From Paracoccus zhejiangensis (GTDB lineage Bacteria > Pseudomonadota > Alphaproteobacteria > Rhodobacterales > Rhodobacteraceae), in NCBI RefSeq assembly GCF_002847445.1, contig NZ_CP025430.1:124001-188000 (forward strand): DNA of 64,000 nt, given 5' to 3'. Shown in pieces: positions 5,909 to 51,541 of the stretch. Within the stretch, counting starts at the first letter, position 1, and each line of letters opens with the position of its first letter. The position numbers and the translations under genes were made by a program. A model generated the notes under the pieces. It did no database searches, had not been told where the DNA came from, and saw nothing but the letters and a program-made list of their open reading frames with translations.

Positions 5909-6831
5909 AGCAGGATGCCCACGTAGAGCGCGTAGCCGGCCAGCAGGCCAAGCCCGACGCGCTTGCCCATGCGCACGCTGCGGAAGAGGAAGGGCCAGAG
6001 CAGCGCCGAGGCCGCCAGCATCACCCAGAGGTCCAGTTGCAGCATCTGCGGCGGGATCGGCAGCGGCTTGATCAGCGCGGTGATGCCGAGGATGGCGAGG
6101 ATGTTGAACAGGTTCGAGCCGACGACATTGCCAAGCGCCATGTCGGCCCGCCCGGCGCGCGCCGAGGCGATCGAGGCCGCCAGTTCGGGCAGCGAGGTGC
6201 CGACCGCCACCAGCGTCAGCCCGATGACCGCCTCGCTGATGCCGAAGCTGCGGGCAATATCGGTCGCGCCGGTAACCAGCAGCTGCGCCCCCACGGGCAG
6301 CGCCACCAGCCCGATGGCCAGCCACAGCGCGATCTTGCCGCCGCTGGCCGAGGCATCCGCCCCCTCCAGATCGCCCTCGCCCCCGGCCCCTGCGGTCGAC
6401 AGCTGCCGCCACAGGACCAGCCCCAGCATCGCCAGCAGCAACAGCCCGTCGATGCGTCCGATCGGCCCCGAGACCGCCATGACGATCAGCACGACCGAGG
6501 CCGCCATCATCATCACCCAGCTTTCATTCAGGTCCAGCCCCTTGGTCGGAATTCCGGTCAGCGCGGCGCAGGCGCCAAGGATGACAAGGACATTGGCGAT
6601 GTTCGAGCCGACGACATTGCCCATGGCGATATCGGTCGAGCCCTTCAGCGCCGCCGAGACCGAGACCAGCATCTCGGGCGCCGAGGTACCGAAGGCCACC
6701 ACGGTCAGCCCGACCACGGTAGGGGTGACGCCAAGGCGCAGGGACAGGTTCACCGCCCCCTTGACCAGGTTGTCGCCACCCAGGACCAGCAGAACAAGGC
6801 CGGCAAGGACCAGCAGGCTATCAACGATCAC
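5905..6831 (-). CDS. Calcium/sodium antiporter, CaCA family (YrbG type)
   Basis: 308-residue polytopic inner-membrane exchanger. The two inverted alpha-repeats are plain: GNVVGSNIANVLVILGA in the N-terminal half and GNVVGSNLFNILAILG in the C-terminal half, each preceded by a G(T/S)S-x-P-E segment (GTSAPEM and GTSLPEL) that forms the cation site. About ten hydrophobic helices are present. Translation starts at GTG 6831, which lies inside the last codons of a 38-residue membrane peptide, and ends in a GTGA overlap with the SDR, so the chain is translationally coupled. Confidence 0.92.
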   Translation of the reverse strand: MIVDSLLVLAGLVLLVLGGDNLVKGAVNLSLRLGVTPTVVGLTVVAFGTSAPEMLVSVSAALKGSTDIAMGNVVGSNIANVLVILGACAALTGIPTKGLDLNESWVMMMAASVVLIVMAVSGPIGRIDGLLLLAMLGLVLWRQLSTAGAGGEGDLEGADASASGGKIALWLAIGLVALPVGAQLLVTGATDIARSFGISEAVIGLTLVAVGTSLPELAASIASARAGRADMALGNVVGSNLFNILAILGITALIKPLPIPPQMLQLDLWVMLAASALLWPFLFRSVRMGKRVGLGLLAGYALYVGILL

Positions 6832-6937
6832 GGCGCGAGATCCCCAGAAATTTCAACAGAAAACGGCGAAAACCCGGACCGGCCAGAAAGGCGATCAGGA
6901 TCATGACGAGCAGGAAGGTCAGGACGATCTTGACCAT
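6821..6937 (-). CDS. 38-residue single-helix membrane peptide
   Basis: A small frame reading MVKIVLTFLLVMILIAFLAG, then a Pro-Gly turn and a basic tail ending SRRDR. One hydrophobic helix covers residues 3-19, followed by positively charged and aromatic residues, so it should insert with its tail in the cytoplasm. Its ATG overlaps the sppA stop (TGATG) and its last codons overlap the GTG start of the exchanger by 11 nt. It therefore sits as a link in a translationally coupled chain sppA-peptide-exchanger-SDR. No family is recognised. It could be an accessory subunit of the exchanger or simply a coupling peptide. Confidence 0.65.
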   Translation of the reverse strand: MVKIVLTFLLVMILIAFLAGPGFRRFLLKFLGISRRDR

Positions 6938-7746
6938 CAGCGGCTGATCCCGAAGCGGGCAAAGGCCGCGCGCTCATCCGCGGCACCCATCAGAGCCTCG
7001 GCCGAAAGGCCGAAGCGACGATACCAGGGCTGGCGGATGCCGTAGCGTTCAAAGCGGACATCGCCGAACAGCTCGCGCATCTTCGGCTCCAGGTGGGCGA
7101 TGCCATCGGCGAGGCCCAGATCGACCGCGCGGCGGCCGGTCCAGAAGGCGCCGGTGAAGAGGTCGGGATCATCGGCCAGCTTCTCGCCACGCCGCGCAAG
7201 GACGTGGTCGCGGAAGGTCTCGTGGATGGTGTCCAGAATGCCGTCCAGCCGTTCGACATCCTCGGGCTTCTCGGGCCGGAACGGGTCGAGCTGCGATTTC
7301 GAGCGTCCGGCGGTATGGACGCGCCGCTCGATCCCCCAGCGCTCGATCAGGTCGGTAAAGCCGAACCCCGCCGAGATCACCCCGATCGAGCCGAGGATCG
7401 AGCTGTCATCGGCCCAGATCCGGTCAGCGGCGCAGGCCAGCCAATAGCCGCCCGAGGCCGCCACATCCTCGACAAAAGCATGGACCGGGACCTTGTGCTG
7501 CTCCGACAGCCGGCGGATGCGCGCGCCGATCAGCGAGGATTGCACCGGCGAACCGCCGGGCGAGTTGATGACCAGCGCCACGGCCAGCGGTTTCCGGCGG
7601 GTAAAGGCGCGATCCAGCAGCGGCTGCAGCCCGGCATCGGAGAGGCCGGCGGCACCGGGACGGGAGGCGGCGCCGATCAGGCCCTGCAGGCGGATGACGG
7701 CGACGCTCGGCTTGCGGTTAAGGAATGGGATTTTCATCCAACCCAC
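6937..7746 (-). CDS. S49-family serine peptidase (SppA/SohB-like)
   Basis: 269-residue protein of the signal-peptide-peptidase family with the Ser/Lys dyad: Ser98 in DVAASGGYW and Lys150 in GRSKSQLDPF. INSPGGS (61-67) forms the conserved oxyanion/strand region. It is short compared with E. coli SppA (618 aa) and matches the single-domain forms of alphaproteobacteria. No strong N-terminal membrane helix is seen, so it is probably peripheral or cytoplasmic-facing. Role inferred: clearance of leftover signal peptides or membrane-protein fragments. A second ATG three codons in (MKIPFLN) is an equally good start. Confidence 0.9.
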   Translation of the reverse strand: MGWMKIPFLNRKPSVAVIRLQGLIGAASRPGAAGLSDAGLQPLLDRAFTRRKPLAVALVINSPGGSPVQSSLIGARIRRLSEQHKVPVHAFVEDVAASGGYWLACAADRIWADDSSILGSIGVISAGFGFTDLIERWGIERRVHTAGRSKSQLDPFRPEKPEDVERLDGILDTIHETFRDHVLARRGEKLADDPDLFTGAFWTGRRAVDLGLADGIAHLEPKMRELFGDVRFERYGIRQPWYRRFGLSAEALMGAADERAAFARFGISR

Positions 7747-7792
7747 ATAAGCGGCGGGGCGGCCCCGGGCAAGCGCGTCGGGATGCCTTGGG

Positions 7793-8815
7793 TCAGGGGA
7801 TGGCGCGGATGGTGTCGCCCGGCAGGAAGGTCGGCGTCAGCGCGACGACCCGGTCGGGCGGGGTGGCGTCCTTGCCGGCGATGATCCGTGCGGCGCGGCG
7901 GCCGATATCATGGCGGCGGGCATCGGTGGTGCTGAGCCGCACCGGCAGCCCGTCCAGCAGGTCGACCCCATTGAAGCCGGCCAGCCCGATCCGGCCCGGG
8001 ATGTCATAGCCCTGATCGAGGCAGTAAAGCAGCCCGCCCGCCCCGATCATGTCATTCGAGTAATAGAGGAAATCCAGATCCGGCGCGCGGGCCAGAATCC
8101 GCTCGGTCAGTTCGCGGCCCTTCAGCAACGAGGAGCCGCCCTGGTAATATTCCCGCGCCTCCAGCTGCACGCCCTTCTCGGCCAGCCCCTCCTCGAAGCC
8201 CACCAGCCGTTTCCGGGCGCGGTGATCCTCGGGCATGTGGGTGCCGACAAAGCCGATGCGGCGATAGCCGGCGGCAAGGATATGGTCGGCCATCTCGCGC
8301 CCGGCGCGGTGATGCGAGATGCCGACCAGCGTGTCGATGCCCTGACCGTCAGTATCCATGATCTCGACGATGGGGATGCCGGAATTCGACAGCATGGCGG
8401 TCGCGGCCTTGCTGTGCTCGAGCCCGGCGAGGATCACCCCCGAGGGCCGCCAGGACAGCATGTCGTAAAGCACCATCTCTTCGCGCGCGGGGGAATAGTT
8501 GCTGACCCCAATCACCGGCTGCAGCCCGGTATCGTCCAGTTCCGCCGAGATCCCGCCCAGCACATCGGGAAAGACCAGGTTCGACAGCGACGGAATGACC
8601 ACCGCGACGAGGTTCACCCGCTGGCTGGCCAGCCCGCCGGCGATCTTGTTGGGGACATAGCCAAGCGTCTTCGCGGCAGTCAGCACCTTCTCGCGCGTCG
8701 CCGCCGAGACATCGCCCCGGTTGCGCAGCACCCGGCTGACCGTCATCTCACTGACGCCCGAGGCTTCGGACACGTCCCGAAGCGTCAATGGCCGGCGCGG
8801 TTTCTGCGGTGTCAT
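7793..8815 (-). CDS. LacI-family transcriptional regulator (gluconate GntR-like)
   Basis: 340 residues: an N-terminal LacI helix-turn-helix (TLRDVSEASGVSEMTVSRVL, about residues 10-29, with the hinge helix near VPNKIAGGLAS), then a periplasmic-binding-protein-like sensor domain beginning VAVVIPSLSNLVFPDVL, which resembles gluconate repressors. The ATG at 8815 is chosen because the HTH starts about nine residues later; the frame stays open far upstream only because it reads through the antisense of a tRNA. It stands alone without neighbouring sugar genes, so its targets are elsewhere. An inverted repeat upstream may be an autoregulatory site. Confidence 0.9.
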   Translation of the reverse strand: MTPQKPRRPLTLRDVSEASGVSEMTVSRVLRNRGDVSAATREKVLTAAKTLGYVPNKIAGGLASQRVNLVAVVIPSLSNLVFPDVLGGISAELDDTGLQPVIGVSNYSPAREEMVLYDMLSWRPSGVILAGLEHSKAATAMLSNSGIPIVEIMDTDGQGIDTLVGISHHRAGREMADHILAAGYRRIGFVGTHMPEDHRARKRLVGFEEGLAEKGVQLEAREYYQGGSSLLKGRELTERILARAPDLDFLYYSNDMIGAGGLLYCLDQGYDIPGRIGLAGFNGVDLLDGLPVRLSTTDARRHDIGRRAARIIAGKDATPPDRVVALTPTFLPGDTIRAIP

Positions 8816-8844
8816 GGCAATCCGATGGGCAATATATACCTTAT

Positions 8845-8859
8845 TAACAAACAGTGTTA
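8845..8859. promoter_or_regulatory. Inverted repeat upstream of the LacI-type regulator
   Basis: TAACA-AACAG-TGTTA is a 5-bp inverted repeat with a 5-nt spacer, 30 bp upstream of the regulator start. On the minus strand a TATATT-like -10 box (about 8831-8836) lies just inside it, so a bound repressor would cover the promoter. Short arms make this tentative. Confidence 0.3.
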
Positions 8860-8923
8860 GCGCATGACCCCGGCACGGGCAAGCTTGCCAATGTCGCAGT
8901 TTCCCGGCACAAGATGCCGCAGC

Positions 8924-9000
8924 GGCCCCGTGGCTCAACTGGATAGAGCAGCCCCCTCCTAAGGGGCAGGTTGCAGGTTCAAATCCTGCCGGGGTCACCA
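8924..9000 (+). tRNA. tRNA-Arg (anticodon CCT)
   Basis: A complete 77-nt cloverleaf can be folded by hand. The acceptor stem GGCCCCG pairs with CGGGGTC (one G-U); the D stem is GCTC/GAGC with loop AACTGGATA; the anticodon stem GCCCC/GGGGC encloses loop CTCCTAA with anticodon CCT; the T arm is GCAGG-TTCAAAT-CCTGC; and the CCA end is encoded at 8998-9000. It decodes AGG arginine codons. tRNA 3' ends are frequent integration sites, and DNA of different character starts directly after it. Confidence 0.97.
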
Positions 9001-9235
9001 AGAAAATCAAGTACTTAGGTTGATATAAAACACTTGAATTGTCCGTCCCGGAACGAAACCCCGGGTGCAGTTTCTGGGTACAACGAATAATTTGGCTTGC
9101 GATTGGCCCATACTGGGGGAACAGGATGCCCATCCCGACGGCGAATTTTTTGCTCATGTCTTGAAATTGTGCTGGTCGATTTCGCCTTACGGGTAAAACG
9201 CCAATATTGCCCTCTGCGAACCTCATGGAGAGCAG

Positions 9236-9517
9236 ATGCCCAAGTCGACCACCACGCCGATCAATCAGCACCGGTTTCGATCACTTCTTAATCGCCTGCG
9301 GCAGATGACGGCAAGCCAGATTGAGGATCTCTTGTCTGCTGCGACCGCGATCCGACGCACCCGTGCTTCCCTTGCAGAAATTGAAGCACGAACAGAGTGG
9401 GATCATCAATGTCCCCATTGTGACTGCTCTCGACGACAGAAGTGGGGCCAGACACGGACCGGGGTGCAACGATATCGCTGTACGGATTGGCTGCGCAGCT
9501 ATTCGGGGCTGACCGGG
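9236..9517 (+). mobile_element. IS1595-like transposase, N-terminal fragment
   Basis: The frame starting MPKSTTTPINQHRFRSLLNR reads like the start of IS1595/IS1016-type DDE transposases: a helical start (LLNRLRQMTASQIEDLLSA), then a zinc ribbon with CPHC at residues 59-62 and RYRC at 79-82. The second knuckle is damaged (RCTDWLRSYSG in place of the expected C-x2-C-G-R-(T/S)-F) and homology stops after SGLTG. The whole DDE catalytic domain is missing. It is a dead remnant, not a working element. Confidence 0.65.
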
Positions 9518-41202: not shown

Positions 41203-41418
41203 ATGATGGCGGATGCGGCTGACCAAGCCATGACCGTGCGAGATGTGGCTGGCTACCTGAACGTCGACGAAAAGACGGTTTATCGGCTCGCCAAGCGCGG
41301 CGATCTGCCGGGTTTCAAAGTGGCCGGCGCATGGCGCTTCAAGAGGTCAGACCTCGATGGCTGGATCGATCTGCAGAAAAAAGCTGCGAAAAAAGAAAGT
41401 TTGAGGGGGCCCGAGTGA
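41203..41418 (+). CDS. Helix-turn-helix (excisionase-type) protein of the restriction operon
   Basis: 71 residues, MerR-like HTH_17/excisionase fold: TVRDVAGYLNVDEKTVYRLA, then GDLPGFKVAGAWRFKRSDLD, followed by a basic tail. It is the first gene of the type I operon, and its stop overlaps the GTG start of hsdM (GTGA). Small HTH proteins of this kind often precede hsdM and may tune expression of the modification and restriction subunits. ATG at 41203 or 41206 are both possible. Confidence 0.82.
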   Translation: MMADAADQAMTVRDVAGYLNVDEKTVYRLAKRGDLPGFKVAGAWRFKRSDLDGWIDLQKKAAKKESLRGPE

Positions 41419-43547
41419 GCGATCTGAACATCAGCAATTTTATCTGGAACATCGCTGATGATGTTCTGCGCGATGTCTATGTTCGCGGCAAATACCGGGA
41501 CGTCATCCTGCCGATGACCGTCATTCGTCGGCTCGACGCCGTGCTTGAACCGACCAAGGACGCGGTCTTGGCTATGAAGGCGCAGCTGGATAAAGCAGGA
41601 GTCGCCAACCAGCACGCGGCTCTTTGCCAGGCGTCGGGCGAAGCCTTCTACAACACATCGCAGTTCCGGCTTCGCGACCTCACGTCTCGCGCGCGCCGCC
41701 AGCAGCTGAAGTCGGACTTCGAGGCCTACCTCGACGGCTTCTCCCCGAACGTTCAGGAAGTGCTCGACAAGTTCAAGTTCCGCAATCAGATCCCAACGCT
41801 TGTCGAAGCGGACGCGCTCGGGTTCCTGATCGAAAAGTTCCTCGACCCATCAGTTAATCTCAGCCCTAAGCCCGTGTTGCACCAAGACGGAAGTGTGCGT
41901 CTGCCCGGGCTCGACAACCACTCAATGGGAACAATATTCGAGGAGCTTATCAGGCGGTTTAACGAAGAGAACAACGAGGAGGCCGGAGAGCACTTCACGC
42001 CTCGTGACGTGGTCGAGCTCATGGCGTACCTGATCTTCATGCCGATCGCGGATGAAATTCAGTCAGGCACCTATCTCGTCTACGATGGTGCCTGCGGCAC
42101 AGGAGGCATGCTGACGGTCGCGGAAGAGACGCTGATCAAGTTGGCGACCGACCACGGGAAAGAGGTGTCGGTCCACCTCTACGGGCAGGAGGTCAATCCC
42201 GAGACATTCGCCATCAGCAAGGCGGACCTCATCCTAAAGGGTGAAGGGGCCGAAGCCGAGAACATGAAGTATGGCTCGACGCTCTCCAGCGATGCATTCC
42301 CATCGAGTGAGTTCGATTTCATGCTTTCGAACCCTCCTTACGGCAAGAGCTGGAAATCCGATCTCGACCGGCTCGGCGGCAAGAAAGACATCGCCGACCC
42401 CCGCTTTGTGATCGTGCACGATGGCGATCCCGAGTACAGCCTGATCACGCGCTCCAGCGATGGCCAGATGGTGTTTCTAGCCAACATGCTGAGCAAGATG
42501 AAGAAGGCCACCAAGGTCGGCAGCCGGATCGCCGAGGTCCACAATGGCTCATCTCTGTTCACGGGCGATGCGGGATCGGGTGAGAGCAATGTGCGGCGCT
42601 GGGTCATCGAGAATGATTGGCTTGAGGCCATCATCGCGCTGCCGCTGAACATCTTCTACAACACCGGTATCGCGACTTACATTTGGGTGCTCAGCAATCG
42701 CAAGGCAGAGTCCCGCAAGGGCAAGGTCCAGCTGATTGATGCGACGGCGTGGTTCAAACCTCTGCGGAAAAACCTCGGCAAGAAGAACTGCATTCTCGGG
42801 CCGGATGACATCAAGCGCATCTGCGACAGCTTCCTCAACAGCGAGGAAAGCGAGCAGTCGAAGATCTTCCCCAACGCGGCGTTCGGTTACTGGAAGATGA
42901 CGGTCGAGCGGCCCTTGCGCTTGAAGGTCGAACTGTCCGCGAGCGCGCAGCGTCGCTTCGCGAAGACGTGCGCGGAGGCTGCTGAAGAGCCCCTCATTGG
43001 CGTTGTGGAAGCGGTGGCTGAGCGGCTTGGCGAAGGCCCCCATCTCGATTTCAACCGCTTCCTTGAAGAAGCCGAAGCTGTGGCGGGCAAGCGCGGCGTC
43101 CGTATGACAGCCAAGCGCCAGAAGCTCCTGATGGCAGGGTTGTGCATCAAAGATCCCGGGGCGGAACCTGTGATCAAGAAGGTGTCCAAGATCAAGCCGG
43201 GCGCCGATGCTGAATCTGATGCGCTCTACGGCAACTATCATCTTACCGTCGGTGGCGAACCAGCGATCATCGAGTTCGAGCCGGACACGGAGTTGAGGGA
43301 CACCGAACAGGTGCCGTTTTTGGAAAACGGCGGTATCGAGGCGTTCTTCCGTCGCGAGGTTCTGCCTCATGCGGCCGACGCCTGGATCGATCCCTCCAAG
43401 ACGGTCATCGGCTATGAAATCTCCTTCACGCGGCACTTCTACAAGCCGCAGCCGCTGCGGACGCTCCAAGAGATCGAGGCCGACATCCGGGCTCTTGAGC
43501 AGGAAACCGAAGGCCTTCTTGAAGACGTGCTAACGGGAGGCCGCTGA
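41415..43547 (+). CDS. hsdM: Type I restriction-modification methyltransferase subunit HsdM
   Basis: 710 residues. N-terminal HsdM helical domain (1-150), then the N6-adenine methylase core: [13 protein letters not shown] (191-203), SAM motif [10 protein letters not shown] (224-232) and motif IV NPPYG (306-310). The C-terminal 150 residues (up to [16 protein letters not shown]) are longer than in E. coli HsdM and carry the region that contacts HsdS. The start is a GTG at 41415; the frame stays open upstream but the domain starts [17 protein letters not shown]. It methylates adenine within the bipartite target as HsdM2S. Confidence 0.95.
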
Positions 43548-43549
43548 GC

Positions 43550-45346
43550 ATGGCCACCCAACGGTACTCAGTCACCCCCCATCCGATCGAAACCCTGCTT
43601 ACCTGGGTGAAGTCCGGCGAGATCGCGATACCGGAAATCCAGCGCCCCTTCGTTTGGGATGCGACCAAGGTCCGCAACCTTCTGGACTCGCTCTATCAGG
43701 GCTATCCGGTCGGCTATCTGATCGCCTGGCGGAACCCGTCGGTCAGGCTGAAAGACGGTTCCACATCCTCGGGTAAGCGCATCCTGATCGACGGGCAACA
43801 GCGCGTCACCGCGCTTATGGCCGCGTTGCTCGGTCAGGAGGTGCTGACCAAGGATTACGAGACCGTACGCATTCGGATCGCGTTCCACCCGGTCGAGGAG
43901 CGCTTCGAGGTTTCGAACCCGGCCATCCAGAAGGACGCCTCGTGGATCCCTGACCTGGCAACGGTCTTCGCGCCTGATGCTAGCCTGACCAAGCTTACGC
44001 GCGAATATACAGCGCGCAATCCGGACGTTGATCAGGACCAGATTTCATTAGTGCTGGAGAAGGTCCGCAAGATCATCAACAACCAGGTCGGCATCATCGA
44101 GCTGGCCGAAGACCTCGACATCGAGACGGTCACTGAGATCTTCATCCGGGTGAATTCGGCCGGGGCATCGCTCAGCCAGGCGGATTTCGCCATGTCGAAA
44201 ATCGCGGCGAACGACACCTATGGCGGCAACATGCTGCGCAAGGCGATCGACTATTTCTGCCATCTCGCCGTCGCGCCCGAATTCCTGCCTCGCATCGAGA
44301 AGGGCGACAAGGCATTCGCCGCTTCCGAGTTCCTGCCGAGGATGCGTTGGCTGAAGGACGTGAACGACGACCTCTACGACCCGTCCTACACCGACATGCT
44401 GCGCGTGGCGTTCACGTCGGAGTTCCGCAGGGGCAAGCTGCAGGATTTGGTCGCCCTGCTGTCGGGACGTAACTTCGAGACGAAGCAGTACGAGGAAGCG
44501 GTCGCCGAGGAGGCCTTCGATAAGCTGAAGGCCGGGGTCCTCAACTTCATCAACAAGACTCACTTCGACAGGCTGACGATGATCCTGCGCTCAGCTGGGT
44601 TCGTCACCTCCGGCCTGATCCGTAGCCAGAACGCCATCAACTTTGCGTACATCCTCTACCTTCGTGGCCGCGCCGAAGGCATGCCGGCCGCCGACATCGA
44701 GCGTCTCGTTCGGCGCTGGTACGTCATGTCGCTCCTGCGCGGGCGTTATTCGGGCAGCCCCGAAACGGCCTTCGATTTCGATATCCGTCAGATCGAGTCC
44801 CGCGGCCTGGCCTCATACACCGACGCGGTGATCGACGCGGAGCTGCCCGAAAGCTTCTGGAACACTCTTCTACCACAGGAGATGGACACCTCCTCCGCCT
44901 CGAGCCCCTATTTCCTTGTCTACCGGGCAGCACAGGTAAAGCTCGGCGACCTCGGCTTCTTGTCGCGGGACATCACCGTGCGTGACCTGTTACTGAACCG
45001 CAGCGATGTGCATCACGTCTATCCGCGCAACCACCTCAAGGGCCAGGGGCTGACGCGCGGCCGCTACAACCAGATCGCCAACTTCGTCCTGGCCCAGAGC
45101 GAGATCAACATTGGCATCGGTGACCGCGACCCGAAGACTTACTTCGCTGAGCTAGCGGACCAGTGCAACGGCGGCGCCAAGAAGTATGGTGGCATCACGA
45201 CGATTGAGGAGATGCGGGCCAATCTTCGGATGAGCTGCTTGCCGGAGTGCATGCTGGACGGAGAGATTCCATCCTTCGATGACTTCCTGGAACAGAGACG
45301 CAAGCTGATGGCGCAGAAGATCAAGACCTATTTCGAGGGACTTTGA
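43550..45346 (+). CDS. DUF262 / HNH (GmrSD-like) nuclease inside the type I operon
   Basis: 598 residues. The N-terminal DUF262 (ParB-like) domain has [11 protein letters not shown] (27-37) and the hallmark DGQQR (81-85), which together bind and hydrolyse NTP in this family. The C-terminal region carries [11 protein letters not shown] with a later N-x2-ANF, the H-H...P and Asn pattern of DUF1524/HNH nucleases. Relatives with this pair (GmrSD, BrxU, SspE) cut DNA with foreign modifications, or protect alongside a host modification system. It starts 2 bp after hsdM stop, so it is in the operon and not an unrelated insertion. Confidence 0.88.
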
Positions 45347-45386: not shown

Positions 45387-46445
45387 ATGGCTGAACGGGA
45401 CGATCTTCTGGCTTCGATTGCAGCGACAACCGTCGACTATCGTGAGGGCGACCTGCCTGCGCCGACGCCGGATCACGTCGGCAGATGGATCTCGCAATTC
45501 GATGCAGATCTGAGATTGCCTATGCTTCGAGAGATGGATTATGTTCTCCAGAGAACATACTTTTCAAAGCGCGAAATCGAGAAAGAACTGGCCGACCATG
45601 CGCGAGTAATCGGCGATGGAGGCAAGGACTTAGACGACAACGCTGCAATAGCCTTTTGGCGCGGAACCGAAATTCTCAACATCCAACAACGAGGCCGCAG
45701 CCAAGCCGACATTAACGAGATATTCGAAGGAGCGTTGCGCGAGCGCTTTGGATTGCGCCTCGCAGACTGCCAAGGTGGAGATAGGAGGTTCGTATACTTT
45801 GATGACATCCTGTTTTCAGGCGACCGCGTTCAAAATGACCTTATGGCTTGGCTGGACAATACCGCGCCGAACGAGGGGCATGTCTCGATTGTTCTTCTAA
45901 TCTCGCACTGCCTCGGAAAATGGGAGACAGAACGAAACCTAAAGGAAGCGATTGCGAGATCAGGCAAGAAGATCACCTTCGATATTCAGGAGCAGATAGT
46001 CCTCGAGAACAGGAAACGATATCGCAACGATGCCGACGTGCTGTGGCCGACTGAGCTTCCGGACGATGACATAGTGCAAGAGTATGCGGCAGCCCAAAGG
46101 TTCCCGTTTGAACCTCGAGCGCCGATCCCCACTCCTCATACGAACATTTTCTCATCTGAAGCCGGTCGCCAATTGCTGGAACGAGAGTTCCTCTTAGCGG
46201 GACTGAAGATCATTAGCTTTTCCAGAAACCCTGCTCAGCGCGTGCGGCCGCTTGGGTACGGGAGATATGGCCTTGGGTTCGGGTCTACCTTGGTAACTTA
46301 CCGGAACTGCCCAAACAACGCCCCTCTCGCGCTGTGGTGGGGAGATCCAAATGCAGCGCCGGGGCATCCGTTTAGGCGTTGGTACCCGCTTCTGCCTCGG
46401 CGCACCTATGAACAAGGTGTGGTAGCACATGACTTCGACTTCTAG
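45387..46445 (+). CDS. Phosphoribosyltransferase-fold conflict protein (PRTase-CE-like)
   Basis: 352 residues, visibly AT-richer than hsdM and hsdR. The middle has RRFVYFDDILFSGDRVQND (133-151): a hydrophobic strand, Asp-Asp and a Gly-rich loop, the form of the PRPP-binding motif of phosphoribosyltransferases. The helical N-terminus (GRWISQFDADLRLPMLREM, then YFSKREIEKEL) matches the lead-in of PRTase-CE proteins described from predicted NTP-regulated conflict systems. It overlaps the next gene by 17 nt. It may make or sense a nucleotide signal; no toxin domain is seen. Function is inferred from domain type only. Confidence 0.72.
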   Translation: MAERDDLLASIAATTVDYREGDLPAPTPDHVGRWISQFDADLRLPMLREMDYVLQRTYFSKREIEKELADHARVIGDGGKDLDDNAAIAFWRGTEILNIQQRGRSQADINEIFEGALRERFGLRLADCQGGDRRFVYFDDILFSGDRVQNDLMAWLDNTAPNEGHVSIVLLISHCLGKWETERNLKEAIARSGKKITFDIQEQIVLENRKRYRNDADVLWPTELPDDDIVQEYAAAQRFPFEPRAPIPTPHTNIFSSEAGRQLLEREFLLAGLKIISFSRNPAQRVRPLGYGRYGLGFGSTLVTYRNCPNNAPLALWWGDPNAAPGHPFRRWYPLLPRRTYEQGVVAHDFDF

Positions 46446-48579
46446 CGCGCCCCACAACAATCAGACCCGGGTCTATGACCGAGAGACAAGTGTCGTCTTC
46501 CTGAAGACCAAGGAACGCTTCGGGGGGCTGTCGAACATGGCGGCGGGCTTCCCCCTGCGCGTGAACGGGGTGCGCATCAAGACGTCGGAAGCGCTGTACC
46601 AGGCATGTCGCTTCCCGCACATGCCCGAGGTGCAGCAGCTCATCATCGGCGAAAATAGTCCGATGACAGCGAAGATGCGCAGTAAGCCGTATCGGCGGGT
46701 TTCCCGGCACGATTGGGACTTTGTCCGGGTCAAGATCATGCGCTGGAGCTTGCGCGTGAAGCTGGCGCAGAACTGGCGCGAGTTTGGCAGGCTGCTGTTG
46801 TCGACGGGTGACCGACCTATCGTCGAGCAATCCCGCAAAGACGATTTCTGGGGAGCGAAGGTTGCCGACGATGGCACGCTGGTCGGCATGAACGTGCTCG
46901 GGCGGCTGCTGATGGAGTTGCGCGAGCAGCTGAAGGGCGATGAGGCGGAGAGCCTGCGGTTCATCGAGCCGTTGGCGATCTCCGAGTTCCTGCTGTTCGG
47001 CCAGCCCATCGAGGCGGTCCAGGCCGCGCCCAATGCCGAGATCCCCGGCTGGACCCCTCGGCGGCCATCCCAGGCCGATACCGCCCCAACGCAGCCCAGA
47101 GACCCCCAGCCCTCCTTATTTGAGCAGCCAATGATTTCAAACGCCGAACCTGTCTCTGCCCCGTCGCTCCCCACTCTCGCCAGAGATGATGATTCACAGA
47201 AGCATCTCTCAGACTATCACCCAGCAGTGCGCGATTGGCTTGGCGATCTGCCAAGCAGATGGGACGTGCTTAGAAGCAAGTATCTGTTCCGCGAGATCGA
47301 CGACCGGACCGACACCGGGACGGAAACCCTACTGTCCATGCGACAGGCGCATGGTCTGATCCCCCATGCGAAGGTATCGACGAAGCCGGTCACGCCGGAA
47401 GAGCTCAAGGGATACAAGCGCGTCCGCACCGGCCAGATGGTGCTGAACCGCATGCAAGCGTCAAACGGCATGTTCGCGGTTGCGCGCGAGGATGGTCTAG
47501 TAAGCCCGGACTATGCGGTATTCCAACCACTCCGGCCGATGGAGCCTGACTACTTCGTCGACCTCTTTAAGACCACCATCTACCGCGCAAAATTCCGGCA
47601 GGAATCGAAAGGGCTTGGAACCGGCATGTCCGGCTTTCTGCGCCTCTACTCGGATCGTTTCGGGGCCATCCATGTCCCGCAACCGCCGGAGGAAGAGCAG
47701 CGCAAGATCGTGCAGTTCATCCGGTCCTTTGACCATCGCGTCCGACGCTTGATCCGCAACAAGCGGCGGCTGATCGGGTTGTTGAACGAGCAGAAGCAGG
47801 CGATCATCAACAGGGCCATCACGCGCGGCCTGAACCCCGAAGCCCCCATGAAGCCCACCGGCATCGACTGGATGCCCGAGGTTCCGGCGCATTGGGCCAT
47901 TAAGCGGATAAAGAACGTAGTTCGTGAGAGAGATGCCAGAAGCGGCACTGGCACGCACGAACTTCTTTCTCTTACACGCAAACATGGTCTTGTTCGGCAT
48001 TCGGACGTAGCAAGTCGTCCAGCGAGCGCTTCTGATTTTACAAACTACAAAGTATGCCTGCCGGGCGAGATCGTGATGAACCGGATGCAAGCTTGGTCAG
48101 GGATGTTTGGCCTAGCGAGCGAAGAAGGCATGGTCAGTCCAGACTATGCGGTATTTGCCCCCGCGGGCGATTGCGAGGCTGCATACTTGGTTACACTCTT
48201 CAAGACGCCGATATTCGTTCATCAATTCGCCATGCGCTCTCAAGGAATTGGTGATGGCTTCAACCGGCTTTACACACCGACCATGGGGGGCATTCCGATT
48301 GTTGTTCCTGCGATTTCTGAGCAGCGCGAGATTTTGAAGCATATCGAAGCTGAGACCCGAGAACTCAGCCAGTTGCAGGTTCGCTTTGAAAGTGAAATTT
48401 CACTTATCCAAGAATATCGTAATCGACTGATTGCCGATGTCGTCACCGGGAAACTCGATGTTCGGCAGATCGAGATCGCCGCACCTGCGGACGGCCCGAT
48501 CGCCGACGAGGACGACGCGCTGGAGGAACTGGACGGTGACGACGCCGAGGTGATGGAGGGGGCCGATGCCGACGACTGA
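46429..48579 (+). CDS. hsdS: NADAR domain fused to type I specificity subunit HsdS
   Basis: 716 residues. Residues ~20-168 are a NADAR (YbiA/DUF1768) N-glycosidase-like domain: GLSNMAAGFP (33-42), SEALYQACRF (53-62) with the key Glu55, DDFWGAK (138-144) and NVLGRLLMELR (155-165). A Pro/Gln-rich linker (~200-255) leads to a full HsdS: first target-recognition domain about 265-425, conserved helices (RRLIRNKRRLIGLLNEQKQA), a second one about 475-640, and a closing helix. HsdS directs HsdM/HsdR to a split target. The ATG lies in the end of the PRTase gene; no internal start for a separate HsdS is evident. Confidence 0.88.
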   Translation: MTSTSSAPHNNQTRVYDRETSVVFLKTKERFGGLSNMAAGFPLRVNGVRIKTSEALYQACRFPHMPEVQQLIIGENSPMTAKMRSKPYRRVSRHDWDFVRVKIMRWSLRVKLAQNWREFGRLLLSTGDRPIVEQSRKDDFWGAKVADDGTLVGMNVLGRLLMELREQLKGDEAESLRFIEPLAISEFLLFGQPIEAVQAAPNAEIPGWTPRRPSQADTAPTQPRDPQPSLFEQPMISNAEPVSAPSLPTLARDDDSQKHLSDYHPAVRDWLGDLPSRWDVLRSKYLFREIDDRTDTGTETLLSMRQAHGLIPHAKVSTKPVTPEELKGYKRVRTGQMVLNRMQASNGMFAVAREDGLVSPDYAVFQPLRPMEPDYFVDLFKTTIYRAKFRQESKGLGTGMSGFLRLYSDRFGAIHVPQPPEEEQRKIVQFIRSFDHRVRRLIRNKRRLIGLLNEQKQAIINRAITRGLNPEAPMKPTGIDWMPEVPAHWAIKRIKNVVRERDARSGTGTHELLSLTRKHGLVRHSDVASRPASASDFTNYKVCLPGEIVMNRMQAWSGMFGLASEEGMVSPDYAVFAPAGDCEAAYLVTLFKTPIFVHQFAMRSQGIGDGFNRLYTPTMGGIPIVVPAISEQREILKHIEAETRELSQLQVRFESEISLIQEYRNRLIADVVTGKLDVRQIEIAAPADGPIADEDDALEELDGDDAEVMEGADADD

Positions 48580-51541
48580 CACCAGCGAAAAAGGCCTCGA
48601 AGCCCTCATCGTCCGCTCGCTGATCGACGAGGCGGGTTACGTCGCTGGCACCTCGAAGGATTTCGACCGGGACCACGCCATCGACCTAGCCAAGCTGTTC
48701 GACTTCCTGAACGCCACGCAGCCGGAGGCTGTTGAGGCCCTCGGCATCGGCGAAGACGGTCCCAAGCGGCTGCAGTTCCTGCACCGGCTGCAAGGCGAGA
48801 TCGCCAAGCGCGGAGTCATCGACGTGCTGCGCAACGGCCTGAAGCACGGTCCCGGATCGGTCGAGCTGTTCTTTGGCACGCCGACCCCCGGCAACGCGAA
48901 GGCCGAAGAGCTGTTCGCCGCCAACGTGTTCAGCGTCACTCGGCAGCTGCACTATTCCAAGGATGCGACCAAGCTGTCGCTCGACGCTGCGCTATTCATC
49001 AACGGCCTGCCCGTCGCCACCTTCGAGTTGAAGAACAGCCTGACCAAGCAGACAGTCGAGGACGCGATCGAGCAGTACAAGCGCGACCGCGATCCAAAGG
49101 AGCTGATGTTCCAGTTCGGCCGCTGTGTGGTTCATTTCGCATTGGACGACCACGAAGTGCGGATGTGCAGCCACCTGAAGGGCAAGGCGTCCTGGTTCCT
49201 GCCGTTCAACAAGGGCTGGAATGACGGTGCGGGCAACCCGCCGAATCCGCATGGCCTGAAGACCGATTACCTTTGGAAGCAGGTTCTGACCAAGCGCAAC
49301 CTCACCGACATCCTGGAGAACTATGCGCAGGTGGTCGAGGAGACGGACGAGCGCGGAAAGAAGAAGCCGCCGAAGCAGATTTTCCCGCGCTTTCACCAGC
49401 TCGACGTGGTGCGCAAGCTGCTGGCTGACGCCGAGGCCTCCGGCGCCGGGCGGCGGTACCTGATCCAGCACTCGGCAGGTTCGGGCAAAAGCAACTCGAT
49501 TGCCTGGCTCGGCCACCAGCTGATCGGGCTGGAGACCGGCGGCAAGCCGACCTTCGACACCGTCATCGTTGTCACCGACAGGCGCAATCTCGACAAACAG
49601 ATCCGCGACACGATCAAGCAGTTCGCGCAGGTATCGTCCATCGTCGGAGCGGTCACGGAAGGTTCGCAGCAGCTTCGGACGTTCCTGCAGCAGGGCAAGA
49701 AGATCATCATCACCACGGTGCAGAAGTTCCCGTTCATCCTGGACGAAATCGGGGACAGCCATCGCGGGCGGACCTTCGCCATCATTATCGACGAGGCGCA
49801 TTCCAGCCAAGGCGGCCGGACCTCGGCAAAGATGAACATCGCGCTTGCCGCGAATGGTGCCGAGGAGGAAGACGAAACCGTCGAGGACACCATCAACCGC
49901 TTGATGGAGGCGCGGAAGGTTCTGCCGAACGCGAGCTATTTCGCCTTCACCGCCACGCCCAAGAACAAGACGCTGGAGATTTTCGGCACGGCGGTCCCCG
50001 AGGGCGGGAAAGTCAGGCACGTCCCTTTCCACAATTATTCGATGAAGCAGGCCATCGAAGAGGGCTTCATCCTCGACGTGCTGAAGCACTACACGCCGGT
50101 CGAGAGCTATTACCGGCTCATGAAGACGGTGGAGGACGACCCGCAGTTCGACGCCAAGCGGGCGCAAAAGAAGCTCCGCCGCTATGTCGAATCCCATGAC
50201 CATGCCATCCGCAAGAAAGCTGAGATCATGGTCGACCACTTCCACGACCAGGTTATGGCCCATCGCAAAATCGGCGGAGCAGCGCGCGCCATGGTGGTGA
50301 CCAGCGGGATCCACCGGGCCATCCAGTATTTTCACGCCTTCGGGGAGTATCTGAAGGAGCGCAAGAGCCCGTACCAAGCCATCGTCGCCTTCTCGGGCGA
50401 GCATGAATATGGCGGCCAGAAGGTCACCGAGGCGTCGCTCAATGGCTTTCCCAGCAACAAGATCGAGGAGTTGATACAGAAGGATCCGTACCGGTTCCTC
50501 ATCGTCGCCGACAAGTTCCAGACCGGCTATGACGAGCCGCTGCTGCACACGATGTACGTGGACAAGACGCTGTCCGGCATCAAGGCCGTGCAGACGCTGT
50601 CGCGCCTGAACCGGGCGCATCCGCAGAAGCACGACACCTTCGTGCTGGATTTCATGAACGACGTGGATGGCATCAAGGCGTCGTTCGAGGACTACTACCG
50701 CACGACGATCCTGAGCGAAGAGACCGATCCGAACAAGCTGCACGACCTGAAAGCGCGGCTCGATGGCTATCAGGTCTATTCCTGGGAGCGGGTGGAGGAC
50801 CTCGTGGCGCTGTATCTCGGTGGCGCCGACCGCGACAAGCTCGACCCGATCCTCGATGCGTGCGTCGCGGTCTACAAAGCCGATCTCGATGAGGATGGAC
50901 AGGTCGACTTCAAGGGCAAGGCGAAGGCATTCACGCGCACCTACGGATTTCTCGCGGCCATCCTGCCCTATACGAACGCGGAATGGGAGAAGCTCTCGAT
51001 TTTCCTGAACTTCCTGACGCCGAAACTGCCTGCTCCGGAGGAGCAGGATCTGTCGAAGGGCATTCTGGAGGCCATCGACATGGACAGCTACAGGGTCGAG
51101 GCGCAGGCGACGATGGCGATTGCGCTTCCCGATGCCGACGCGGAAATCGGCCCTGTGCCGTTGGGCGGAGGCGGTCGCAAGCCTGAGCCGGAATTGGACC
51201 TGCTCAGCAACATCCTCAAGACGTTCAACGAGATGTTCGGCAACATCGACTGGAAGGACGCCGACAAGATCGGGAAGGTGATAGCTGAGGAGTTGCCCAC
51301 GAAGGTCGCGGCCGACAAGGCCTATCAAAACGCGATGCAGAATTCGGACAAGCAGAACGCCCGCATCGAGCACGACAAGGCACTGGAGCGCGCGGTCATC
51401 GAACTGCTATCTGACCATACCGAGCTGTTCAAACAGTTCAGCGACAATCCATCGTTCAAGAAATGGCTTTCGGAGACGGTTTTCGCGGCGACCTATGCCG
51501 ACAAGGCGGCGCAGGCCGGTTCGGCTGCTACTCGCAGCTGA
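48566..51541 (+). CDS. hsdR: Type I restriction endonuclease subunit HsdR
   Basis: 991 residues. N-terminal PD-(D/E)xK nuclease with LPVATFELKNS (~150-160); helicase motor with Walker A IQHSAGSGKSNS near 302, motif Ia VVTDRRNLDKQI, DEAH in IIDEAHSSQGG near 409, motif III FTATPKN, and later ADKFQTGYDEPLL and TLSRLNR. The C-terminal helical part ends near TVFAATYADKAA. It translocates DNA and cuts far from the target. It overlaps hsdS by 14 nt. Length is typical. It closes the operon. Confidence 0.96.
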   Translation: MPTTDTSEKGLEALIVRSLIDEAGYVAGTSKDFDRDHAIDLAKLFDFLNATQPEAVEALGIGEDGPKRLQFLHRLQGEIAKRGVIDVLRNGLKHGPGSVELFFGTPTPGNAKAEELFAANVFSVTRQLHYSKDATKLSLDAALFINGLPVATFELKNSLTKQTVEDAIEQYKRDRDPKELMFQFGRCVVHFALDDHEVRMCSHLKGKASWFLPFNKGWNDGAGNPPNPHGLKTDYLWKQVLTKRNLTDILENYAQVVEETDERGKKKPPKQIFPRFHQLDVVRKLLADAEASGAGRRYLIQHSAGSGKSNSIAWLGHQLIGLETGGKPTFDTVIVVTDRRNLDKQIRDTIKQFAQVSSIVGAVTEGSQQLRTFLQQGKKIIITTVQKFPFILDEIGDSHRGRTFAIIIDEAHSSQGGRTSAKMNIALAANGAEEEDETVEDTINRLMEARKVLPNASYFAFTATPKNKTLEIFGTAVPEGGKVRHVPFHNYSMKQAIEEGFILDVLKHYTPVESYYRLMKTVEDDPQFDAKRAQKKLRRYVESHDHAIRKKAEIMVDHFHDQVMAHRKIGGAARAMVVTSGIHRAIQYFHAFGEYLKERKSPYQAIVAFSGEHEYGGQKVTEASLNGFPSNKIEELIQKDPYRFLIVADKFQTGYDEPLLHTMYVDKTLSGIKAVQTLSRLNRAHPQKHDTFVLDFMNDVDGIKASFEDYYRTTILSEETDPNKLHDLKARLDGYQVYSWERVEDLVALYLGGADRDKLDPILDACVAVYKADLDEDGQVDFKGKAKAFTRTYGFLAAILPYTNAEWEKLSIFLNFLTPKLPAPEEQDLSKGILEAIDMDSYRVEAQATMAIALPDADAEIGPVPLGGGGRKPEPELDLLSNILKTFNEMFGNIDWKDADKIGKVIAEELPTKVAADKAYQNAMQNSDKQNARIEHDKALERAVIELLSDHTELFKQFSDNPSFKKWLSETVFAATYADKAAQAGSAATRS

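Follow-up and report, generated by a model that had tools for sequence, protein, structure and literature searches.

The 64,000 nucleotides of Paracoccus zhejiangensis DNA considered here (contig NZ_CP025430.1, positions 124,001 to 188,000 of the forward strand; in the following the window) contain a type I restriction-modification operon in which a gene for a phosphoribosyltransferase (PRTase)-like protein is followed by a gene for an N-terminal fusion of a NADAR domain to the specificity subunit HsdS (NADAR::HsdS). The order of the genes, which are all on the plus strand, is hsdM, DUF262/GmrSD_N, PRTase-CE, NADAR::HsdS and hsdR (Table 1), HsdM, an HsdS with two target recognition domains (TRDs) and HsdR being encoded together in one operon as in other type I systems. 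The genes for PRTase-CE and NADAR::HsdS overlap by 17 bases, and those for NADAR::HsdS and HsdR also overlap.

It is confirmed that a complete NADAR domain and a two-TRD HsdS share a single frame, as an earlier note on this DNA, made from the letters and their translations, had described. The frame of 716 amino acids is uninterrupted, with no internal stop. Pfam NADAR covers residues 24–169 (1.3e-25; 91 bits versus a cut-off of 35.1), so that a profile search empty for residues 20–168, on which the fusion was to be given up, did not occur, and the NCBIfam model NF053876 (DS32_2_antiphage) matches residues 14–194 over its full length with 289 bits (cut-off 240). The solved protein closest in sequence to the NADAR part is YbiA (2b3w; 1.3e-18), and the fusion holds the only Pfam NADAR match of the host genome. 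In the HsdS part, the best of the PADLOC type I specificity models matches residues 320–679 (302 bits) and the second best residues 262–681 (275 bits), whereas Pfam Methylase_S clears its cut-off modestly (29.5 versus 22); the two halves of this part are homologous, with 39% identity across 205 amino acids.

Table 1. Features of the operon, with positions in the window
Feature	Position	Strand	Basis or remark
hsdM, type I methyltransferase subunit	41331..43547	+	738 amino acids from the first start codon
DUF262/GmrSD_N-type protein	43550..45346	+	Pfam GmrSD_N, 1e-29; between hsdM and PRTase
PRTase-CE, first component of DS-32	45387..46445	+	Pfam PRTase-CE, 188 bits; NF053875, 376 bits (cut-off 250)
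Phosphoribosyl pyrophosphate (PRPP)-loop-like motif FVYFDDILFSG, PRTase residues 135–145	45789..45821	+	Conservation in alignment
NADAR::HsdS fusion protein, 716 amino acids	46429..48579	+	Pfam, PADLOC, NCBIfam and solved-structure sequence matches
NADAR domain, second component of DS-32, residues 14–194	46468..47010	+	NF053876 match
Pro/Gln-rich linker	47011..47199	+	Variable stretch between NADAR and HsdS
QPSLF, peptide resembling clamp-binding motifs, residues 227–231	47107..47121	+	Conservation in alignment A4
Two-TRD HsdS part, residues about 258–716	47200..48579	+	PADLOC Specificity_I; homologous halves
hsdR, type I restriction subunit	48566..51541	+	Pfam HSDR_N, SWI2_SNF2 and ResIII; PADLOC REase_I, 149 bits

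The earlier note had treated NADAR as a domain added to HsdS. It is indeed fused to HsdS; it is, however, not a lone addition, and forms one half of a PRTase-NADAR pair, the other half of which is encoded by the overlapping upstream gene that the note had missed. Both halves score above the curated NCBIfam cut-offs for the components of DS-32, a named anti-phage system of two genes (NF053875 for the PRTase and NF053876 for NADAR), and they are adjacent in the order PRTase-NADAR. The defence setting that had been proposed is supported. In DS-32 the two genes form a unit with a free NADAR; since NADAR is here fused to HsdS, the locus is a variant form of this already named system. The same cut-offs are passed by an Escherichia coli-type pair, by a stand-alone pair and by a pair of the Hma type (see below). 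It should be noted that DS names come from DefensePredictor, the validated units of which are labelled DS-n (PMC13092281, in the part of the text available), that "DS-32" is absent from the main text of that paper, and that the equation of DS-32 with PRTase plus NADAR is taken from the names of the two NCBIfam models. An available portion of PMC12735699 lists DS-32 also for P. aeruginosa isolates. A published mechanism for DS-32 was not found in the literature searched.

The pair looks obligate. When loci were collected via NADAR, a PRTase gene was directly upstream in 78 of 78 evaluable cases. When they were collected via the PRTase, a NADAR gene followed immediately in 34 of 34 viral contigs and in 2 of 2 genome matches (both with alignment A2), and likewise in 3 of 3 records of a plasmid collection (one of 5.4 Mb) searched with the PRTase of the window. 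In this direction the pairing persists down to 27% identity to the query. One locus (L035) with a weak PRTase-like frame (23–26 bits, under the cut-off) and no NADAR in the stretch examined was excluded from these counts. Of 5426 E. coli genomes, 63 have a match to the E. coli-type pair, which in 43 covers 80% or more of the query; in the one record inspected, the pair lies in a lambdoid prophage, between the gene for replication protein P and ybcN/ninE. A phage origin of the PRTase was considered and set aside, a tblastn search of 50,697 phage records with the window protein giving no match, although such a search may overlook divergent copies; despite this null result, the PRTase-NADAR pair is present in viral contigs and in an E. 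coli prophage.

The fusion is not singular. A genome collection was scanned with 21 aligned NADARs (A1), and the best 80 of the 212 loci obtained were used, hsdM and hsdR being called by similarity to the Hsd proteins of the window (above 100 bits). Of the 80 loci, 42, from separate assemblies, carry the NADAR-HsdS fusion, which spans several phyla. PRTase and hsdM lie upstream in all 40 fused loci that have upstream sequence (L041 and L072 begin at or near a contig end), and hsdR lies downstream in 41 of the 42, the last (L096) stopping 725 bases on. Wherever NADAR lies within a type I operon of this set, it is fused to HsdS (42 of 42). The other 38 loci all have a PRTase upstream, and hsdM or hsdR matches above 100 bits were found in none of them; one (L086) has weak matches on the opposite strand (60 and 48 bits) and in another (L097) an HsdS-like frame (112 bits) stands apart, about 7.7 kb upstream. 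Among proteins, where the note had proposed to look for N-terminal fusions, residues 1–200 were used as query against entries of 394–1253 amino acids: 1023 proteins match the NADAR part in this size range and, among the 120 of these matches that were listed, 107, one of them the protein of the window, bear the labels NADAR and Methylase_S together.

Overall the module is thus widespread, yet it is sporadic and rare close to home. In a search with the whole protein against 61 genomes (37 of the same genus, its own included), the NADAR part was matched only in the genome of the window; of 385 genomes of the class, 3 score above the cut-off with the DS32_2 model, and so do 3 of 398 genomes of the phylum with the DS32_1 model. 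In one genome of the same genus (G007), fusion residues 187–716 are matched. What remains of the locus there (L012, around 6730–9504) is hsdS-hsdR, next to which an IS3-type transposase occupies the place expected for NADAR; it looks like a disrupted relative in which the module was lost naturally.

HsdS is not the only fusion partner, which the earlier note had overlooked. In 6 of the 80 loci NADAR is part of proteins of 1032–1308 amino acids, four of which match PADLOC HmaB (L070, L077 and L095 with more than 1000 bits, L113 with 423 bits); L087 and L099 were called HmaB fusions by length and place only, as was the viral contig L131 in the tree described below. HmaA and HmaC flank it in L070 and L077, the two loci in which neighbours were scanned, and the module lies between helicase and methylase, fused to the methylase. 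The same module is carried by modification subunits of two kinds, HsdS and HmaB. A helix-hairpin-helix (HhH) domain is found in three shorter NADAR fusions from Chloroflexota (L063, L092 and L107), each with a PRTase upstream. Five cyanobacterial NADARs of 323–332 amino acids (L100, L111, L112, L114 and L115) have a C-terminal part, which in L111, the only one of the five scanned, has no Pfam match. More distant NADARs occur in proteins of about 650–1050 amino acids (L018 and L019), with no PRTase in the stretch examined.

A quick tree was made of 122 NADAR domains (107 different), in which 50 of the 104 inner branches are weak; L017, L018 and L019, as outside the family, and L119 and L120, as the same loci as L033 and L034, were excluded, and five viral contigs labelled HsdS by length were afterwards confirmed. 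HsdS fusions fall mainly in two clades. By parsimony 8 changes of the HsdS label are needed, and on starred branches at least 2, and from this the fusion must be old, or recurrent, or both. Inside the HsdS-fusion clade there are two PRTase-NADAR pairs for which no hsd genes were detected (L053 and L056); the end of L056 keeps the peptide QPSLF, which suggests that this pair outlived the loss of hsdS.

The statement in the earlier note that no type I system with such a subunit was described still holds in the literature searched, with the reservation that the NADAR part belongs to the named DS-32. Full-text searches, the scope of which did not extend to bioRxiv, supplements and most subscription papers, gave no description of the fusion, of a pairing with restriction systems or of the linker motif. 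Mentions of HsdS in PMC11543638 are strain genotypes and not a fusion, mentions of NADAR in PMC13273231 are author names, and "clamp" occurs in PMC11543638, PMC11125620 and PMC13092281 only as an author name.

The active sites of both partners are conserved. Both the domain match and the pocket residues place the fused domain in the NADAR superfamily, E54, R61, K82, R93, W96, E133 and W141 being identical in 122 of 122 rows (107 different sequences). The glutamate to which the earlier note had pointed is indeed the conserved catalytic one, its number being 54 rather than 55. The pocket was mapped by alignment to 8bau and by the description of an ADP-ribose-bound NADAR in the available text of PMC11543638; 8bau is taken to be the NADAR of P. 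nicotianae because its numbering fits the residues of that paper with an offset of two. The contacts to the distal ribose and the phosphates, as given there, map to E54, R61 (a lysine there), K86, W96, R100, E133, D138 and W141, of which R100 is found in 120 and D138 in 115 of the 122 rows, with K or R at position 86 in 121. The contacts to adenosine, by contrast, are lost: the position of the stacking tyrosine is mainly D, K, N, E, Q or V, and that of the aspartate is arginine in 122 of 122 rows. YbiA, when aligned to 8bau, likewise has an arginine at the aspartate position. In the riboflavin pathway, the substrates of YbiA are N-glycosides of ribose-5-phosphate, and it is a bond of this kind that a PRTase would form. 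Since the ribose and phosphate contacts are kept, those to adenosine are lost and YbiA-type substrates are ribose-5-phosphate N-glycosides, a phosphoribosyl mark is proposed. In the PRTase, D139, D140 and G145 are invariant in the 45 rows of alignment A3, and the PRPP loop with its two acidic residues places the protein in the PRTase superfamily; in a profile comparison the stretch FVYFDDILFSG aligns with PyrR, weakly (E about 0.5).

The linker, correctly described before as Pro/Gln-rich, contains a conserved motif that had been missed. In the alignment of 62 fused proteins (A4), only P206 and residues 227–231 of the stretch 195–269 reach a conservation of 0.9, the values for the five positions of QPSLF being 0.95, 0.90, 0.97, 0.94 and 0.95. 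This peptide agrees with the bacterial clamp-binding consensus, which is QL[S/D]LF or more generally QxxLF (PMC12309361) and often C-terminal (PMC4549789; both papers cited from available parts). In a linker that we assume to be disordered, it may serve as a binding peptide for the sliding clamp (DnaN). The motif Qxx[LM][FL] was sought in a fixed stretch of 75 residues after NADAR and is present in 109 of the 120 long NADAR proteins listed of the 1023 (shuffled mean 1.8, maximum 7), which include that of the window and at least one (P0107) without an HsdS label. It is found in 37 of the 42 fused loci and, when the linkers are clustered, in 16 of 20 clusters (shuffled mean 0.6, maximum 4); of 587 control blocks taken from the HsdS part, 18 contain it. 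From 58 stand-alone NADAR open reading frames (ORFs) 43 distinct tails were obtained, and the last nine residues of 26 of these contain the motif or Qx[LM]x[LM][FL] (shuffled mean 0.3, maximum 3), for example QPALF, QSELF and QSDMF and, in the E. coli type, QSLSLF; after clustering it is present in 7 of 21 tail clusters (shuffled mean 0.1, maximum 2). Among NADARs with no PRTase in the stretch examined, 0 of 15 have the motif in the last nine residues. In the genome of the window, QLDLFD forms the end of DinB, and QTSLF occurs in the main DnaE, at residue 923 of the frame.

As to the other genes of the operon, HsdM has Pfam matches to N6_Mtase and HsdM_N and 839 bits with PADLOC MTase_I, versus 92 bits with NCBIfam TIGR00497, which is under the cut-off of 243; its true start may be further inside the frame. 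HsdR reaches 208 bits with TIGR00348, under the cut-off of 285. Its length is 991 amino acids in the window versus about 1180 in L037, L038, L043 and L046, and in the G007 relative the extra N-terminus resembles, by eye, an HNH domain. The GmrSD gene is an optional member of the operon, being present in 18 of the 42 fused loci and broken in one of these (L055); its product in the window resembles PADLOC HEC-05 (109 bits). Right after hsdR, on the minus strand between 52260 and 57989, there are ORFs that by eye resemble HK97-type prophage or gene-transfer-agent genes (peptidase, capsid and protease).

The explanation that accounts best for these findings as a whole, and to which we would give somewhat less than an even chance, is that DS-32 was absorbed into a type I operon, the PRTase being a writer and NADAR an eraser anchored to the clamp and to HsdS. 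A type I restriction-modification operon would have taken up DS-32, the NADAR component of which became joined to the N-terminus of HsdS. The PRTase, as writer or effector, would modify a nucleic-acid base at an exocyclic amine with a ribose-phosphate-type adduct; NADAR, an N-glycosidase, would be the eraser or antitoxin, for which DarT1-NADAR is a precedent (PMC11543638, in part). The eraser would be tied to host DNA twice, via the clamp-binding peptide in the linker and via HsdS. Adducts would be erased at the host fork and on host-modified DNA; phage DNA, or a cell with a disabled restriction complex, would remain poisoned. That HsdS delivers the hydrolase to DNA, as suggested in the earlier note, is plausible. 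Its other suggestion, protection from DarT-type ADP-ribosylation, is in our judgement less likely than action against the product of its own PRTase. A Pfam search of the five operon proteins revealed no ADP-ribosyltransferase domain and thus no DarT-type partner, and the adenosine contacts are lost. A more general form of this explanation, which we regard as doubtful, is that of a write-and-erase immune module using a phosphoribosyl rather than an ADP-ribosyl mark on nucleic acid, the eraser of which would be guided to the cell's own DNA. In most forms the clamp would do this, with HsdS, HmaB or HhH domains adding to it where NADAR is fused to them. If true, restriction specificity would mark the DNA to be spared from the cell's own poison, which would be a new kind of self/non-self discrimination.

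Several points weigh against this explanation. It is a guess that nucleic acid is what the PRTase acts on, and the match of this protein to solved PRTases is weak. The pairing, which holds in both directions, fails to separate writer from eraser. The strict motif is absent in 5 of the 42 fused loci and in 14 of the 21 clusters of stand-alone tails, some of which have near-variants or an internal copy, and it is found in 0 of 6 long putative HmaB fusions, two of which have K-P-x-L-F. Among the 15 control NADARs, the protein ends close to the NADAR domain in only 11, a second DnaE-like frame of the host (L159) lacks a clamp-type site, and the ligand of the peptide could be a different protein, for instance the PRTase or HsdM.

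A serious rival, albeit a rather unlikely one, is a guard as in PrrC, in which the NADAR-HsdS complex would hold the PRTase as a latent poison that is set free when an anti-restriction protein of a phage disturbs the complex, NADAR mainly binding or inhibiting. Indeed, all 40 evaluable fused loci have the PRTase gene within the hsd operon, placed between hsdM and hsdS, EcoprrI/PrrC provides a precedent (PMC3874165), and PRTase-like proteins are typical effectors of type III retrons (PMC12548924; both as far as their text was available). The NADAR pocket is conserved, however (E54, E133 and W141 in 122 of 122 rows), which would be unnecessary for pure binding, and in as many as 38 of 80 loci neither hsdM nor hsdR is detectable beside the pair, so that the unit seems to be functional without a type I enzyme.

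It is unlikely that NADAR itself is the effector, an N-glycosidase brought to phage DNA by HsdS and the clamp for the removal of modified bases, with the PRTase making or tuning a ligand. This would fit the fact that it is to NADAR that DNA-recognition modules (HsdS, HmaB and HhH) are joined, and that NADAR bears the clamp-like motif. However, the NADARs assayed remove ADP-ribose from guanine, and some, not all, are antitoxins; base excision is not seen in the available parts of PMC11543638 and PMC11125620, from which these data come, and elsewhere, as stated in part of PMC12548924, it is the PRTase-like proteins that are effectors.

Quite unlikely is a fusion that arose as a by-product of overlapping genes and merely sets expression or stoichiometry, DS-32 and restriction acting independently. 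Overlapping genes ease fusion, and in many loci, the E. coli prophage included, the pair occurs without hsd genes. Yet NADAR is joined to HsdS in every type I operon of the set and in others to HmaB, the HsdS label needs the repeated changes seen in the tree, starred branches included, and the motif is retained within an otherwise variable linker. For an assembly or annotation error joining two genes, the second ground on which the earlier note would have given up the fusion, no supporting point was found, and the recurrence of the fusion in 42 loci of separate assemblies from several phyla virtually excludes it.

Fusions of NADAR to DNA-recognition and methylation subunits, together with the clamp-like motif, offer handles on the site of action of DS-32, which may be host DNA and possibly the fork, and hint at what the two DS-32 enzymes may do to each other's product. 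Moreover, operons of the restriction type take in a second defence within a single polypeptide, as seen for at least two of these systems, type I and Hma.

Compared with known systems, the window shares with DS-32 both components and their order, both over curated cut-offs; in DS-32, however, NADAR is a free protein of about 205 amino acids, whereas here it is fused to HsdS within an hsdM-hsdS-hsdR operon. With type I restriction-modification systems (hsdMSR) it has HsdM, a two-TRD HsdS and HsdR in common, and it differs by the N-terminal NADAR of HsdS and by the PRTase and DUF262 genes inserted into the operon. In DarT1-NADAR, too, a NADAR with conserved acidic and basic pocket residues stands beside a transferase of the sugar-phosphate kind; the partner in the window, however, is PRTase-CE and not an ADP-ribosyltransferase, and the pocket has the YbiA-type Glu133, Arg61 in place of the pocket lysine, and no adenosine contacts. 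EcoprrI/PrrC resembles the window in that a second-line gene is set in a type I operon (PMC3874165, in the portion available), but the gene there encodes an anticodon nuclease, rather than a PRTase with a covalent NADAR-HsdS fusion. In the Hma system (HmaA-HmaB-HmaC), finally, which is a different modification system and absent from the window, the relatives L070 and L077 carry the same PRTase-NADAR module fused to HmaB.

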